Part shown: positions 1 to 4,990 of the stretch, in pieces
Position numbering within the stretch: the stretch's first letter is position 1
Layout of the letters: each line of letters begins with the position of its first letter
DNA from: Methylocystis sp.
GTDB lineage: Bacteria > Pseudomonadota > Alphaproteobacteria > Rhizobiales > Beijerinckiaceae
Assembly: GCA_024506175.1 (NCBI GenBank)
Contig: JAMBEQ010000062.1
Location: forward strand, 1 to 36,982
Reading direction: 5' to 3'
Length of the DNA stretch: 36,982 nucleotides
The notes under the pieces: model-generated
The model's database searches: none
What the model saw: the letters and a program-made list of their open reading frames with translations, nothing else
Told to the model about the DNA's origin: nothing
Program-made: the position numbers and the translations under genes

Positions 1-23
1 GCGGCGTCGTTCGCGCATTCTTG

Positions 24-108
24 TGGGGGTTGTTCATCCGAAGAAGTCCCGAGTGCATCGTGTGGCAACGACCACTCTCAAGCCTTCAGCTCGGGTGAAC
101 AACCTCCT
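24..108. repeat. Imperfect 18-bp inverted repeat with 49-base spacer
   Basis: The arms lie at 24-41 and 91-108 and match at 15 of 18 positions; the core GGTTGTTCA (28-36) is repeated perfectly as TGAACAACC (96-104). It sits just beyond the stop codon of the minus-strand PAS-GGDEF-EAL gene at 121. It could be a long-loop hairpin, paired operator half-sites or two ends of an eroded mobile element. No transposase fragment is visible beside it. Confidence 0.45.
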
Positions 109-120
109 CAGACGCTACAG

Positions 121-2412
121 CTAGGCGGCGCTCTCAAGCTTCGGGGCGTCCGCCCAGCATACGAGAAGCGGCGCTAGCTCCTCGATCGGGCGCGGCCGGC
201 TATAGAGAAAGCCCTGGATCAGAAAGATGTTCTTGCTCGCCATGAAGCCGAGCTGAGCCTGCGTTTCCACGCCTTCCGCGACAAGGTCGAGCTGGAGATC
301 CCTGGCGAGGGCCGAAATTGCGGTGATGATTGCCTGGGTTTTCGGAGATTCGATCGCCTGCCTGGAAAACGCCTGGTCGATCTTCACTTTTTTCACAGGG
401 AAGCGGTTGAGATAGCTGAGGCTGCTGTAGCCCGTCCCGAAATCGTCGAGAGACAGGCGTGCGCCGAGGGCCTCGATTTTCCTGAGTTTCTCTTCCACAT
501 CCTCTGTGTTGTTGATCAGCGTGGACTCGGTGATCTCGAGTTCGAGTCGGTCCGGTTCCAGACCGCTCTCGACGAGAGCGGCGGCGATCGAGTCGACAAT
601 GTCCGCCTGATGGAACTGCTTGGGGGCGAGATTGACTGCGACCCGCACATTCGATGGCCAGGCGACCGCATCACGGCACGCGCGGCCAAGCACCCAGGCG
701 CCGATTTCGACGATCAGACCCGTCTCCTCCGCGACCGGGATAAAAACGCCAGGGGAAATCATCCCCCGCTCCGGGTGGCGCCAGCGCACCAGCGCTTCCA
801 TTGCGACGATCGCGCCCCGGCGTGAATCGACGATCGGCTGATAGAAAACGACAAACTCGTCCCTTATCAACGCTTCTCGCAGCCGCTCCTCAATCTCCCG
901 TTTTTCGACCATCGCCTCCTGCATTTTCGCCGAGTAGCGCACGGCTCGTCCGCGGGCGTTCAATTTGGCTTCATACAGCGCCAGGTCGGCGCATTTCAGC
1001 AGGCCGACGGGGGTGTCGGCGTCATGCGGCGCGATCGCGAGTCCAATGGTTGCGCCAATGGTGATTCGATGCCCATCGATCTGGAAAGAGCGGCTCAACT
1101 CTTTCAGAATGCCGCTCGTCAGCGCATCAATGTCGGGCGCCTCGTCCGAGGCGCGCATCAAAATGCTGAATTCGTCGCCGCCCAGCCGAGCCACGAGATT
1201 GGGGGCCGGCGCGCAGGCGCCAAGTCGTGCGCCGACATGGGCGAGAAGTTGGTCGCCGACCATATGGCCAAGCGTGTCGTTGACCTCTTTGAAGCGGTCC
1301 AGGTCGATGTCGATGAGCACGAGGCTCCCGCCGGCGTCGTCGAGTCGAAGCATATCGGCGCCGAGCGCGTCTTGAAAATGGTAGCGGTTCGGAAGGCCGG
1401 TGAGCTCGTCGTAATGGGCGATCCGTTCGATCTCGTGTAACGCGCGCTGCTTGACCGTGACGTCCTCGATGACAGTGACGAAAGCGCCGCCGTGCGCCCG
1501 CTCGCAGTGAAAGTCGAAGTAACGCTCGCCGATTTTCTGCATGAACGCCGTGGGATGCGGCATTGCCGCGTGGCGCACCCAGAGCGCCGTGAATTTTTCT
1601 ATCTCCGCCTGGGGCATGGCGGCGCTGCGGCCAATGGCGTGAGCCAGAGCATCTAGCTTGATCGGCGTCGCTGCGGCGACAATGCCGAAGAACTCGACGA
1701 TGCGCCTGTTCATCACCGAGATCGTGAGGGAGGCGTCGCCCATGCAGAGACCATGGGTCATCGAGTTGAGCGCAATGCTGAACTTTTGGCGTTGCCGCAT
1801 GGCGTCGCGGCCGTTGCGGAGGGCGGATTCGAGATGGCCTTTAAGAAAATTTGTCGTCCGGAAGACAGACATCGCGCCGAAGATCAGAAATGCCGAAATG
1901 CCCCAATACCAAGGAGAAAAGTTCAATAAAATTGTAATGGCCAGGGGCATGCATGTGCCCATCATCTGCCAGAACACAATTTTGGGGCGAGCCGCGTTCC
2001 TCGCTGCGAGATTGCCGGTCACGCCCGTCATGATGATGACGCCGTAATAGCCAGCGATCTCATGGTAATGGTAGTTGAACAATATCGCGGTGGAAACGCC
2101 GAGCGCCGCCATGAAGCTGATGGCGCCGGCGCCATAGCGGCGCTCCCATGTGGCCGCGTCGCGGCGGCGAACCTCTATCGCCGCGCGCTGATGCGAAACC
2201 AGGACGTGAACGCGGTAGGCGCCGATCAGCGCCATGAGGGCGACCAGCCCCAGATAGGATCGCTCTCCGGTAGAAAACCAGGCGATCGCAGGAACGAGGA
2301 CTCCCGAAAGAATGCCGGTGATCAGCGTATGCGTGGTGTCGAACAGAGTCTCCACGAGGTCCGCATAAATTTCAGCTTCCGCGGGCTTGGGATTCGCCGA
2401 GACACTCGTCAT
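121..2412 (-). CDS. Membrane-anchored PAS-GGDEF-EAL cyclic-di-GMP enzyme, candidate DSF receptor
   Basis: About 763 residues. The N-terminal ~195 residues hold about six hydrophobic segments, so the protein is an inner-membrane protein. A PAS_7-like domain follows (~210-325, containing SMTHGLCMGD), then GGDEF (~330-490, motif GGDEF near 411-415) and EAL (~505-755, motif EAL near 539-541). The GGDEF signature is intact, and the EAL ligands are present (LEITES, DDFGTGYSS, VKID, AEGVE, IQG), so both c-di-GMP synthesis and hydrolysis are plausible. No RxxD inhibitory site precedes GGDEF. The ATG at 2412 has an AGGA about 8 bases upstream; an in-frame GTG at 2433 would overlap the preceding stop by 4 bases. 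It lies 17 bases after the RpfF-type gene and is almost certainly co-transcribed with it. Its role as sensor of the DSF product is inferred from this context and the RpfF/RpfR precedent. Confidence 0.9.
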   Translation of the reverse strand: MTSVSANPKPAEAEIYADLVETLFDTTHTLITGILSGVLVPAIAWFSTGERSYLGLVALMALIGAYRVHVLVSHQRAAIEVRRRDAATWERRYGAGAISFMAALGVSTAILFNYHYHEIAGYYGVIIMTGVTGNLAARNAARPKIVFWQMMGTCMPLAITILLNFSPWYWGISAFLIFGAMSVFRTTNFLKGHLESALRNGRDAMRQRQKFSIALNSMTHGLCMGDASLTISVMNRRIVEFFGIVAAATPIKLDALAHAIGRSAAMPQAEIEKFTALWVRHAAMPHPTAFMQKIGERYFDFHCERAHGGAFVTVIEDVTVKQRALHEIERIAHYDELTGLPNRYHFQDALGADMLRLDDAGGSLVLIDIDLDRFKEVNDTLGHMVGDQLLAHVGARLGACAPAPNLVARLGGDEFSILMRASDEAPDIDALTSGILKELSRSFQIDGHRITIGATIGLAIAPHDADTPVGLLKCADLALYEAKLNARGRAVRYSAKMQEAMVEKREIEERLREALIRDEFVVFYQPIVDSRRGAIVAMEALVRWRHPERGMISPGVFIPVAEETGLIVEIGAWVLGRACRDAVAWPSNVRVAVNLAPKQFHQADIVDSIAAALVESGLEPDRLELEITESTLINNTEDVEEKLRKIEALGARLSLDDFGTGYSSLSYLNRFPVKKVKIDQAFSRQAIESPKTQAIITAISALARDLQLDLVAEGVETQAQLGFMASKNIFLIQGFLYSRPRPIEELAPLLVCWADAPKLESAA

Positions 2413-2429
2413 ACGGTTTTCCTGTCGTC

Positions 2430-3359
2430 TCACGAAGAGTTCGATACGAGTAATCTGTCGTTTTCGGGCGCCTTTTGCCGAGCGCCGATCAAACGCTGTT
2501 GAGCGCGAACGAGTCTCTCCATATGACGCAGGTCGCGCTCGTCGATCCTAGCTGAACATTCGGCCCACAATTCAGTAATTCGGATGAGTTCATCATGGGT
2601 TACGGGGTGGCTGCGTCGTCTCGCTTCGGCAATGGCGCGCCGCCGGCGCCACTTCCTATCGCCTGATTCGCGCATCCATTCGACGGCGGCTTCCCGCGAT
2701 GCGCCCGGCGGCGTGATCTCGTCGATGACTTCCAGCTCGAACATCTGGCGGCCGGTATAGGTTTCTCCGCTCATGATGATCTGCTGGGTGAGCGCGGAGC
2801 CCACGCGGCGAGTCAGCATGGTGACGGCCCCCATGCCAGGGAATGTATTGAAAGCAACCTCGGGAAGGCCAAAGATGGCGTTCTCTTCCGCAATGATGAA
2901 GTCGAAGGCGAGCGCCGCCTCGAGCGCTCCGCCGAGGCACTGTCCCTGCACCGCGCAAAGGGTGACGATCGGCAGATCGAGGCTCTGGGAATAGCTGTAC
3001 ACAAGATCGACGCAGGCATGCGCATAGGTGACCAGCGTCGAGAGATCCTGGCGGCGAATTGCTGCGGCGAATGTGGCAAGGTCGCCCCCCAAAGAAAAGA
3101 CGCCGGGCCGTTTGGCCGCCATGACGAGGTAGCGGAAAGGGAAGCCGCCGATGAATGCGGACTCGCTGAGCGCGCGGAGCGAATCGCGCAACTGCAACAG
3201 CTCGACCAGCATTGTAAGAGTATAACACTGAGGGGCGTCGGCGCGATAATTCATCCAGATCGAGGCGGTCTGCGGATGGTAGTCAATGTCCAGCGTCTCG
3301 AAGCGCCAATGCGGAAATTCCCCCGGATCTTTGGGGCCGCGAAAGACAATGTCCGTCAT
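2430..3359 (-). CDS. rpfF: RpfF-type DSF synthase (crotonase-fold cis-2-enoyl fatty acid signal synthase)
   Basis: A 309-residue crotonase-superfamily protein. The middle and C-terminal parts closely follow Xanthomonas/Burkholderia RpfF as I recall it: FSLGGDLATF, GGALEAALAFDFIIAEE, GLPEVAFNTFPGMGA and a C-terminal RITELW...HMERLVRAQ. The two glutamates used by RpfF for thioesterase/dehydratase chemistry (E141 and E161 in Xanthomonas) are matched by E147 and E167, with the same 20-residue spacing. RpfF converts 3-hydroxyacyl-ACP to cis-2-unsaturated fatty acids, the diffusible signal factors. The start at 3359 is chosen because CAGGAG lies about 8 bases upstream; the longer open frame has no such site. 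The first gene of a two-gene operon with the downstream PAS-GGDEF-EAL protein. A plain enoyl-CoA hydratase is the alternative, but the C-terminal tail and glutamate pair argue for RpfF. Confidence 0.85.
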   Translation of the reverse strand: MTDIVFRGPKDPGEFPHWRFETLDIDYHPQTASIWMNYRADAPQCYTLTMLVELLQLRDSLRALSESAFIGGFPFRYLVMAAKRPGVFSLGGDLATFAAAIRRQDLSTLVTYAHACVDLVYSYSQSLDLPIVTLCAVQGQCLGGALEAALAFDFIIAEENAIFGLPEVAFNTFPGMGAVTMLTRRVGSALTQQIIMSGETYTGRQMFELEVIDEITPPGASREAAVEWMRESGDRKWRRRRAIAEARRRSHPVTHDELIRITELWAECSARIDERDLRHMERLVRAQQRLIGARQKAPENDRLLVSNSS

Positions 3360-3649: not shown

Positions 3650-4990
3650 TCACAGAGTCTCGAACCAGGTCGCGAGCCCTGCGGCTTCATGCTCCAGAAT
3701 GTCGTCGTGGATGGCCCACTTGCCCGCCGCATCCGCGACGAACGACACATGCTTTGTCTTGCGGGCGGGAATAATGACGCCGTTGCGCCAGTAGGGCTCC
3801 CAGCCATCGTCGAGATCGTGCAAGAGGCGCATGGCGTGGCCATGCACATGCATCGCCAGCGGAACATCCGACTTGTTGACATAGCCGAGAGTTACGGGGG
3901 TCCCGCGCTTCACGCTGAACAGCGGCGGGCCTTCATAGCCGTTCGTCGCCGCGCCGTTGATAATCCACCCGGGGCCGCCCGCCGGCCCCGGCTCGATAAT
4001 CAGATCCACTTTCTTCGCGTTATTGAGCTTGATCTCCGGCGGCAGCGCCGGGTTCTGGGGCAGGGAGTAGATCAAGCCCCGCTTTTCCGACCGCGCCCCT
4101 TTCGCCGTGGCGACGAGAATCTCGCTTTCGCTATTATTGGGCCCGCGCAGGATGACGCGCGCCTTGGCGCCTTCCGTCGCCGGCATGTCGAAGATGAGCT
4201 CGAATCGCGCGCCGGGGGCGACCGGGATGCTGCGCCGAACCGGTTCGAAGGCCTCGCAAGGCTGGCTATCGATCGCGACGACGAACGGCTGCACGCCGTC
4301 GAACGTGAGGATCATGATTCTCGCATTTGCGAGATTTGCGAGTCGCACGCGCACGCGCGCATTTGCCTGAAACTCGCGCACCAACGGCGGCGCCTCGCCG
4401 TTGACGGCAAGAGTCGGACCGACGCGCCCGGCGCCGCGCGCCTCGGCGGGGTTGTCGAAGGCGCCTTCGAGCCTCCCTTGCTCGTCGAGGCGCCAATCAT
4501 CGAGGACAAGAAGCAGGTCATGGTCGGCAGGCAGCCGCTCGGGCTCGTCGACGACCAGGAGACCCTTGAGGCCGCGCCCCATGAGTTCGGGCGTCTTACC
4601 GTAAGCGCTTGGCCTGTAGCAGTAGAGGCCGGGCTCCGTCAGCTTGCGGCGATAGTCCCAAGAACCGCCTGGGGTGACCGCCGGTTGGGTCAGCGGCGCG
4701 ACGCCGTCCATGGCGTTCTCGCCGCGCATTCCGTGCCAGTGGATCGTCGCGGGGAGGTCGAGCTTATTGACGAGGCGGACGGCAAGCTCCTCGCCCTGCT
4801 TGTAGCGCAGCACGGGGCCAGGCGTGACGCTTTCGAAGCCGAGAATGTTCGTCTCATTGGCGCCGAGCTTGGCCTTGCCTGCCCGCGCCTCGATGATTCG
4901 CGGGCCGGCTTGCGGCGCCGCGCGCGCGGGGAGGGCGATGACGCTGGCGGCGACGCCCGCGAGGAAGGCGCGGCGGGAGTGCGAGGGCAT
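3650..4990 (-). CDS. Tat-exported multicopper-oxidase-fold protein with degenerate copper sites
   Basis: 446 residues, the usual length of a three-domain multicopper oxidase. The N-terminus carries a twin-arginine signal (SRRAFLAG, residues 5-12) and a hydrophobic stretch ending near PARAAP, so export to the periplasm is expected. The first copper motif is present (HWHG, 84-87) and so is part of the third (HVHGH, 381-385). The second motif, normally WYHSH, reads YCYRPS (123-128). The type-1 His before HVHGH is Leu378, and the normal HCHxxxH reads HDDILEH (428-434), so the type-1 Cys and a type-3 His are Asp. Oxidase activity is therefore unlikely. A structural role like that of copper-free SufI/FtsP is one possibility. 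A monocistronic minus-strand gene with only a weak ribosome site. Confidence 0.85.
   Translation of the reverse strand: MPSHSRRAFLAGVAASVIALPARAAPQAGPRIIEARAGKAKLGANETNILGFESVTPGPVLRYKQGEELAVRLVNKLDLPATIHWHGMRGENAMDGVAPLTQPAVTPGGSWDYRRKLTEPGLYCYRPSAYGKTPELMGRGLKGLLVVDEPERLPADHDLLLVLDDWRLDEQGRLEGAFDNPAEARGAGRVGPTLAVNGEAPPLVREFQANARVRVRLANLANARIMILTFDGVQPFVVAIDSQPCEAFEPVRRSIPVAPGARFELIFDMPATEGAKARVILRGPNNSESEILVATAKGARSEKRGLIYSLPQNPALPPEIKLNNAKKVDLIIEPGPAGGPGWIINGAATNGYEGPPLFSVKRGTPVTLGYVNKSDVPLAMHVHGHAMRLLHDLDDGWEPYWRNGVIIPARKTKHVSFVADAAGKWAIHDDILEHEAAGLATWFETL

Follow-up and report, generated by a model that had tools for sequence, protein, structure and literature searches.

A probable DSF synthase gene paired with a candidate one-component membrane receptor, and a synthase paralogue predicted to be inactive, in Methylocystis

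What kind of signalling circuit is encoded where a gene for a synthase of the diffusible signal factor (DSF) family stands directly in front of a gene for a membrane-embedded PAS-GGDEF-EAL protein? The question is raised by a stretch of 36,982 nucleotides from a Methylocystis genome (assembly GCA_024506175.1; 3.37 Mb in 266 contigs), hereafter the window, which is contig C62 (JAMBEQ010000062.1) from its base 1. By its rpfF gene, the nearest named relative is Methylocystis sp. Sn-Cys, at 86% identity. The best explanation of the locus as a whole, which we regard as likely, is that it encodes an RpfF signal synthase and a cognate one-component membrane receptor, joined by a dead RpfF paralogue that serves as a binding partner; within this explanation we infer the chemistry of the signal, its binding site, the net direction of the enzymatic activity and every interaction. 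The pair is laid out as follows.

2430..3359, minus strand: rpfF, gene for an RpfF-family (PRK08788) crotonase of 309 amino acids; ATG at 3359, stop ending at 2430; E147, E167, GG at 91-92 and G144 present
2413..2429, minus strand: intergenic gap of 17 bases between rpfF and the membrane gene, with AGGA 7 bases before the ATG
121..2412, minus strand: gene for a membrane PAS-GGDEF-EAL protein of 763 amino acids, the proposed one-component receptor; ATG at 2412, stop ending at 121
1768..2412, minus strand: MEMB, the N-terminal six-helix membrane domain of that protein (residues 1-215), with no convincing Pfam family

Both spacings given in the initial annotation, a gap of 17 bases or, with a GTG start, an overlap of 4, can be read in the sequence. 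The GTG lies at 2433 and would overlap the rpfF stop; the ATG at 2412 is the likelier start because AGGA sits 7 bases upstream of it. The two genes are probably co-transcribed.

The enzyme

Pfam assigns ECH_1 and ECH_2 to the window enzyme, which also passes the NCBIfam model PRK08788 with 287.7 bits against a cut-off of 177. Its best match in the PDB is RpfF 3m6m (2.2e-44), and the next three are 6dgn, named as an RpfF, and 7zq7 and 5fus, close kin of these RpfFs that carry the name of crotonase or hydratase. In a tree of 117 rows, made from 134 sequences by dropping 17 near-copies, a branch with 100/100 support unites the window enzyme with 3m6m, 7zq7, 5fus and every row that stems from an rpf locus and leaves eight generic crotonases outside, in an analysis for which the program warned that the bootstrap was unsettled and in which some long rows are unsure, L225 being among those possibly misplaced. 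The RpfF-like identity first proposed for this protein is upheld by the tree, and there is strong sequence evidence that the window enzyme belongs to the RpfF family.

The catalytic residues contribute less to this assignment than had been supposed. Glu141 and Glu161, together with Gly residues, have been named for the thioesterase activity of RpfF (PMC9040811), and E147, E167, G91-G92 and G144 are all present in the window enzyme by alignment. The spacing of the two glutamates had been taken as a mark of RpfF; both are indeed there, but they are not diagnostic, because all eight generic crotonases aligned carry them as well. In addition, the NCBIfam RpfF equivalog NF053515 (cut-off 550) is not reached by the window enzyme (182.8 bits). 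The same model is missed by RpfFs encoded beside RpfR-type genes (L230, 180.7; L233, 181.2) and passed by L229, a near-copy of PDB 7zq7 (582.5). Thus, its cut-off covers only part of the RpfFs, and missing it does not count against the window enzyme.

A remote RpfF-like group, with 24-29% identity, was also seen at 20 loci (L128 and L207-L226 except L223). The first catalytic glutamate is D in 18 of the 20, and a membrane GGDEF-EAL gene adjoins in all 20 fetched loci.

The membrane protein

Pfam recognises PAS_7, GGDEF and EAL in the membrane protein and finds no kinase, REC or Hpt domain. AlphaFold2 predicts six membrane-length helices (residues 27-48, 51-76, 86-114, 118-138, 143-164 and 167 onwards), the last of which continues towards the PAS domain; the mean predicted local distance difference test score (pLDDT) is 85, and the predicted template modelling score (pTM) is 0.47 for the whole protein and 0.79 when the membrane part is taken by itself. 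The protein has an intact GGDEF motif. The RxxD inhibition site is lacking in the window protein and in the Methylocystis copies close to it; 15 of 30 aligned homologues have it. The eight catalytic positions of EAL (E539, N594, E626, D656, D657, K677, E713 and Q733) are invariant in all 30.

No known fold was found for MEMB: Pfam gave nothing convincing, a profile search of the PDB nothing, and Foldseek nothing at E <= 0.001, a membrane cyclase, ImcA, being among the sub-threshold matches at E 0.22. No FI domain was found in the protein either, as residues 1-215 are predicted to form the six helices and the PDB profile search gave no FI chain. MEMB behaves as one family across loci of tandem, tail-to-tail, upstream and remote type (hhalign 97.1-99.9% between groups). 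That it might be the input domain of RpfC fused to PAS-GGDEF-EAL was considered and rejected. Compared with a profile of 30 alphaproteobacterial RpfC-type input domains, MEMB gave hhalign values of 0.1-15%, versus 97-100% within families, and for the membrane part alone the value fell below 1%, versus 100% for one half of the RpfC domains set against the other half.

The PAS domain offers a different reading, in which it is the PAS that reads the signal while the membrane bundle merely anchors it near the membrane, where a fatty acid partitions. Known soluble receptors of the DSF family, RpfR and RpfS, do use PAS (PMC4504480, PMC6361424), and PAS_7 occurs in the window protein; of five further MEMB proteins that were run against Pfam, four have it too (L107, L121, L128 and L267:2205-4481). 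However, the fifth, L269, has no PAS by Pfam; the RpfR residues that contact the Burkholderia DSF-family signal BDSF, namely N172, Y183, R187 and N202, are kept in none of the 30 homologues, with S169 aligning loosely in 20; and the PAS of the membrane protein reaches only 7% in hhalign with that of RpfR. By sequence comparison, then, it is not RpfR's PAS. Together with the clear retention of MEMB across arrangements, these points make sensing by the PAS rather unlikely, if still the strongest competitor of sensing by the membrane bundle. They also bear on the suggestion that a membrane region here replaces the soluble N-terminal part of RpfR: the membrane PAS-GGDEF-EAL architecture stands, and the derivation from RpfR does not, with no FI found and four of five contacts missing throughout.

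Within MEMB, residues R67, W89, R138, N139, Q149 and P156 are conserved and, by the predicted topology, would lie largely towards the inner face of the membrane.

Conservation of the pair

Among 39 genomes of the genus, this RpfF is found in 26 (E <= 1e-100), and in two others the sole RpfF is a remote one. MEMB (E <= 1e-40) is present in exactly those 28 genomes and in none of the remaining 11. The pair is adjacent in 24 of the 26 genomes with this RpfF, the window included. In all 20 fetched loci the membrane gene follows rpfF on the same strand, and for five further loci that were not fetched, coordinates place the genes next to each other in three cases and on separate contigs in the other two. 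One Methylocystis genome (L084) has the membrane gene broken into two frames, through sequencing error or decay.

Across 199 genomes of the family, MEMB lies within 4 kb of 43 of 74 RpfF-like hits (E <= 1e-25), where about 0.1 of 74 would be expected by chance from arithmetic on hit density. Sorted by RpfF score, adjacency is found for all 15 hits that reach at least 250 bits, for 6 of the 37 between 150 and 250 bits and for all 22 between 90 and 150 bits. By genome, 49 have both genes, 21 RpfF only, 29 MEMB only and 100 neither. The gene pair is thus conserved in genus and family, a point that the initial annotation had left to comparison. Neither outcome that the annotation would have taken as refutation, a place firmly inside non-RpfF enoyl-CoA hydratases or a lack of conservation of the pair, was seen.

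A third gene: an RpfF paralogue predicted to be inactive

At 27 of 30 tandem loci, the membrane gene is followed by a convergent open frame, 238-273 residues long. The frame is also present on two Bosea plasmids (L267:9310-10098 and L268:9260-9994), under the label of hypothetical protein, and L223 gives a weak match of 38.7 bits; no relative was found on the viral contigs scanned. Profile comparison relates this protein to RpfF (hhalign 99.8%, about 16% identity), and on sequence grounds it is a remote RpfF paralogue. In an alignment of 23 rows, in which one copy entered twice and three alignment modes agree apart from P166, E167 and G144 are lost in all 23; at the E147 position 18 rows have D and 5 have E, and D93 of the GGD loop falls in a gap in 20. 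The paralogue has thereby lost the second catalytic glutamate and the greater part of the oxyanion site. Judged by these residues, the paralogue should be incapable of RpfF chemistry.

The paralogue keeps company with RpfF. In the genus it occurs in 27 of 39 genomes, namely the 26 with this RpfF and one other (G600); the two genomes whose sole RpfF is remote lack it. In the family, 14 genomes have it at 259 bits or more, all of them among the 15 with an RpfF of at least 250 bits; the fifteenth, G042, is cut inside the membrane gene, and the next match below this set, at 102 bits, is RpfF itself. Close linkage is not required for its retention, since it lies about 2 Mb from rpfF in G581 and on a different contig in G105.

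In the window, the corresponding region is missing.

1..120, no strand: left edge of the contig, beyond which the third gene is expected from 27 of 30 tandem loci

The genome does hold a copy, at C54:27035-27601, cut by the end of contig C54, and the C54 end and the left edge of the window would be neighbours in the genome. The paralogue lies beyond the contig edge and was therefore invisible to the initial annotation.

Partners of rpfF elsewhere

A broader survey scanned 122 loci with custom profiles (80 from genus, family, order and class hits, L008 and L009, and 40 from a second round); in the first of these sets, distances between genes are approximate wherever frames overlap. MEMB is found in 63 of them, downstream in tandem in 47, tail to tail in 9 and upstream in 7, and GGDEF and EAL stand in the MEMB frame at 61 of the 63, the exceptions being L084, which is split, and L090, which a contig end cuts short. 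In Hyphomicrobiales outside the genus, too, MEMB adjoins RpfF-like genes in the three arrangements, at the position that RpfC or RpfR takes in other genomes. An RpfC-type input domain is found in 40, nearly always tail to tail, 18 of which also have a nearby GGDEF-EAL; at no locus of the 122 do MEMB and the RpfC input domain occur together. The remainder comprises six loci with GGDEF-EAL and neither membrane domain and 13 in which no partner was found. The comparison with known pairs made at the outset needs amending here: among the scanned loci the commonest other neighbour is RpfC, but MEMB is a different domain from the RpfC input domain.

Of the six loci lacking a membrane domain, four resemble RpfR by sequence, and one of the four, L230, was matched to the solved PAS and FI domains of RpfR; L115 is cut by a contig end and its sister in the tree has the membrane type, and L235 is different. 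Representatives of the RpfC-like proteins have HisKA, HATPase, receiver and Hpt domains in Pfam and adjoin REC-PAS-GGDEF-EAL or REC-PAS-kinase proteins. Two variants of the RpfC loci were seen besides. At L105 a REC-PAS-GGDEF-EAL protein (Pfam) follows rpfC where the HD-GYP protein RpfG would be, and L102, L104 and L108 share this layout, with a GGDEF-EAL protein after rpfC; in L131, L137, L141 and L142, which are alphaproteobacterial rpfF-rpfC loci, a REC-PAS-histidine kinase follows rpfC.

On the RpfF tree, the MEMB-partner label changes six times, and at least three of the changes are forced by well-supported branches, in a tree whose root and direction of partner change are not settled. 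Thus, the partner of rpfF has been exchanged several times. The pair also occurs on plasmids: 60 plasmid records have a match, and of the five loci examined, four carry both genes, one on pMRAD01 of Methylobacterium radiotolerans, two on Bosea plasmids and one in Sphingomonas parapaucimobilis. In M. radiotolerans JCM 2831 the two genes are annotated, as MRAD2831_RS61465 and RS61470. The fifth locus is on the Methylorubrum extorquens AM1 megaplasmid. There, an unannotated RpfF-like gene is convergent with a gene for a 652-residue PAS-GGDEF-EAL protein that gives no match to the MEMB profile (L265). On one Bosea plasmid, rpfF has another gene of the membrane-PAS-GGDEF-EAL type on its opposite flank, in which EAL scores less strongly (L267:2205-4481).

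These observations bear on the reading that the gene order was simply inherited by descent, with no functional link. A neighbouring gene could be cited for it.

3650..4990, minus strand, upstream of rpfF: multicopper oxidase gene (Pfam), with a counterpart in 25 of 30 tandem loci

This gene, whose membership in the system is uncertain and which may be just such a case of inherited order, is retained in the tandem clade as well, so that conservation of local order there is general. However, three arrangements of the pair, the three or more partner changes that the RpfF tree forces, the involvement of two RpfF lineages, the presence of the pair at four of five plasmid loci and the retention of the third gene when unlinked all argue for more than inheritance, and make this reading highly improbable.

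How specific is the membrane domain?

The proposal that the membrane protein is a receptor for the RpfF product has several observations against it. Most MEMB hits lie away from RpfF: 76 of the 119 listed in the 199 family genomes are not adjacent to an RpfF-like hit (one of these proved to adjoin an rpfF cut by a contig end), and at 17 of 18 inspected strong orphan loci no RpfF match was found among frames of at least 80 residues. Such homologues keep R67 (17 of 17), R138 (17 of 17) and Q149 (16 of 17). These three residues had been considered as a marker of the DSF site, a use that is weakened because proteins away from rpfF share them; they mark the domain and not the ligand, and no feature specific to RpfF neighbours was found in MEMB. 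As homologous membrane proteins occur without rpfF, MEMB is not DSF-specific in itself, and a fatty-acid ligand is no more than a proposal.

The pairing itself is also uneven. At 150-250 bits MEMB is missing from 31 of the 37 family RpfF hits, and of eight of these that were inspected, five have RpfC and three no partner by the profiles. Moreover, at 20 of the 63 loci with MEMB the RpfF is of the remote kind, and in 18 of these D replaces the first glutamate. The third gene was found in the tandem type only, none being seen in the tail-to-tail, upstream or RpfC loci scanned, and G600 carries a full-length paralogue (C125:1420-2124) although its genome yielded neither an RpfF (E <= 1e-25) nor MEMB (E <= 1e-40). 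Sampling adds to this: the 122 loci were picked from hits and not at random, 30 of them also supplied the RpfC profile, and the MEMB profile was built from rpfF neighbours, so that the adjacency of 20 of its 20 top hits is partly built in.

One reading draws on the frequency of MEMB away from rpfF, with the same invariant residues: the two proteins would share a pathway in which the RpfF product is not sensed, the membrane protein sensing lipid or redox state and setting cyclic di-GMP (c-di-GMP), and RpfF acting as an acyl-ACP (acyl carrier protein) thioesterase or hydratase in membrane remodelling. However, the same kind of locus otherwise holds known DSF receptors, RpfC and RpfR, and the three pairing arrangements argue for a specific relation; we consider this reading unlikely. 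A one-gene membrane receptor acting on c-di-GMP, as proposed from the start, remains the best reading of the protein, and it is the fatty-acid ligand that the orphan hits make less secure.

Proposed mechanism and significance

In the mechanism that we favour, RpfF would use acyl-ACP to make a signal of the DSF family, which is probably a free fatty acid with cis-2 unsaturation. This signal, located within the inner membrane or at its surface, would alter the six-helix bundle of the receptor, and the sixth helix would relay the change via PAS to GGDEF-EAL, whereupon c-di-GMP would fall or rise. The dead paralogue, usually coded next door, may bind RpfF, the signal or the receptor. Neither REC nor FI was found in the receptor, and the paralogue could take the place of the domains that hold the synthase in RpfC (REC) and RpfR (FI). 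Crotonases form trimers; the paralogue could act through mixed oligomers with RpfF, through binding of the product or as a bridge between RpfF and the receptor.

More tentatively, and as a possibility that we would not yet assert, the system may stand as a core class of its own, the third, within DSF signalling. It would consist of a synthase, a six-helix c-di-GMP receptor that is encoded by one gene and needs no phosphorelay, and a natural dead paralogue as dedicated regulator or signal-binding subunit that replaces the restraint exerted by REC in RpfC or FI in RpfR, the pairing having been assembled more than once by receptor swap beside rpfF. If true, this third pathway would combine a membrane input, as in RpfC, with a direct c-di-GMP output, as in RpfR, in methanotrophs and other Hyphomicrobiales, and would link cell-to-cell signalling to biofilm control in methane-consuming bacteria. 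The dead paralogue, in turn, would provide a genetic handle on why DSF signalling involves the synthase protein as such and not just what it makes. A DSF synthase coupled to a c-di-GMP receptor is already known; as far as seen, the novelty lies in a one-component receptor set in the membrane and in a dead synthase as partner. Among the open-licence papers listed by title and abstract, none reported the pair of rpfF with a membrane GGDEF-EAL gene or the trio with the dead paralogue, none dealt with DSF in Methylocystis, and none described a DSF circuit in methanotrophs or other Hyphomicrobiales, which does not prove that no such report exists.

Comparison with known DSF systems

Relatives of the receptor include the MEMB proteins of Hyphomicrobiales that lie away from rpfF, which have a homologous membrane domain, GGDEF and often EAL, and differ in having no rpfF neighbour. 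Among DSF systems proper, two core perception pathways, RpfC/RpfG and RpfR, were named in a 2015 review (PMC4504480), and the present locus resembles each in part.

With the RpfF/RpfC/RpfG system of Xanthomonas and its alphaproteobacterial form, it shares a membrane-embedded input beside rpfF and an output in c-di-GMP. RpfC, a five-helix histidine kinase, works through a phosphorelay (PMC4504480), and it binds DSF via a 22-residue region next to the membrane (PMC5391125). In contrast, the window protein has no kinase, REC or Hpt domain, and the two membrane domains have no detectable homology. With the RpfF/RpfR system of Burkholderia and Cronobacter, the likeness is a DSF-family synthase gene beside a single PAS-GGDEF-EAL protein, in which sensing would act directly on c-di-GMP. 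RpfR is soluble, its FI domain binding RpfF and its PAS binding BDSF (PMC6361424), whereas the window receptor has six predicted membrane helices, no FI that could be found and four of the five contact residues missing. The genes are in tandem in this genus and not convergent, and the dead synthase is an addition.

The role proposed for that dead synthase also has a precedent. The REC domain of RpfC binds RpfF and represses it (PMC4504480), and in Xylella a catalytically inactive RpfF supports DSF signalling (PMC4504480). The likeness is that a synthase lacking the catalytic glutamates still takes part in signalling; the difference is that in Xylella it is an engineered variant of the sole RpfF, whereas here it is a natural, separate and remote paralogue. 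Since an inactive RpfF supports signalling in Xylella, a signalling role for the natural dead copy beside the Methylocystis pair is plausible.

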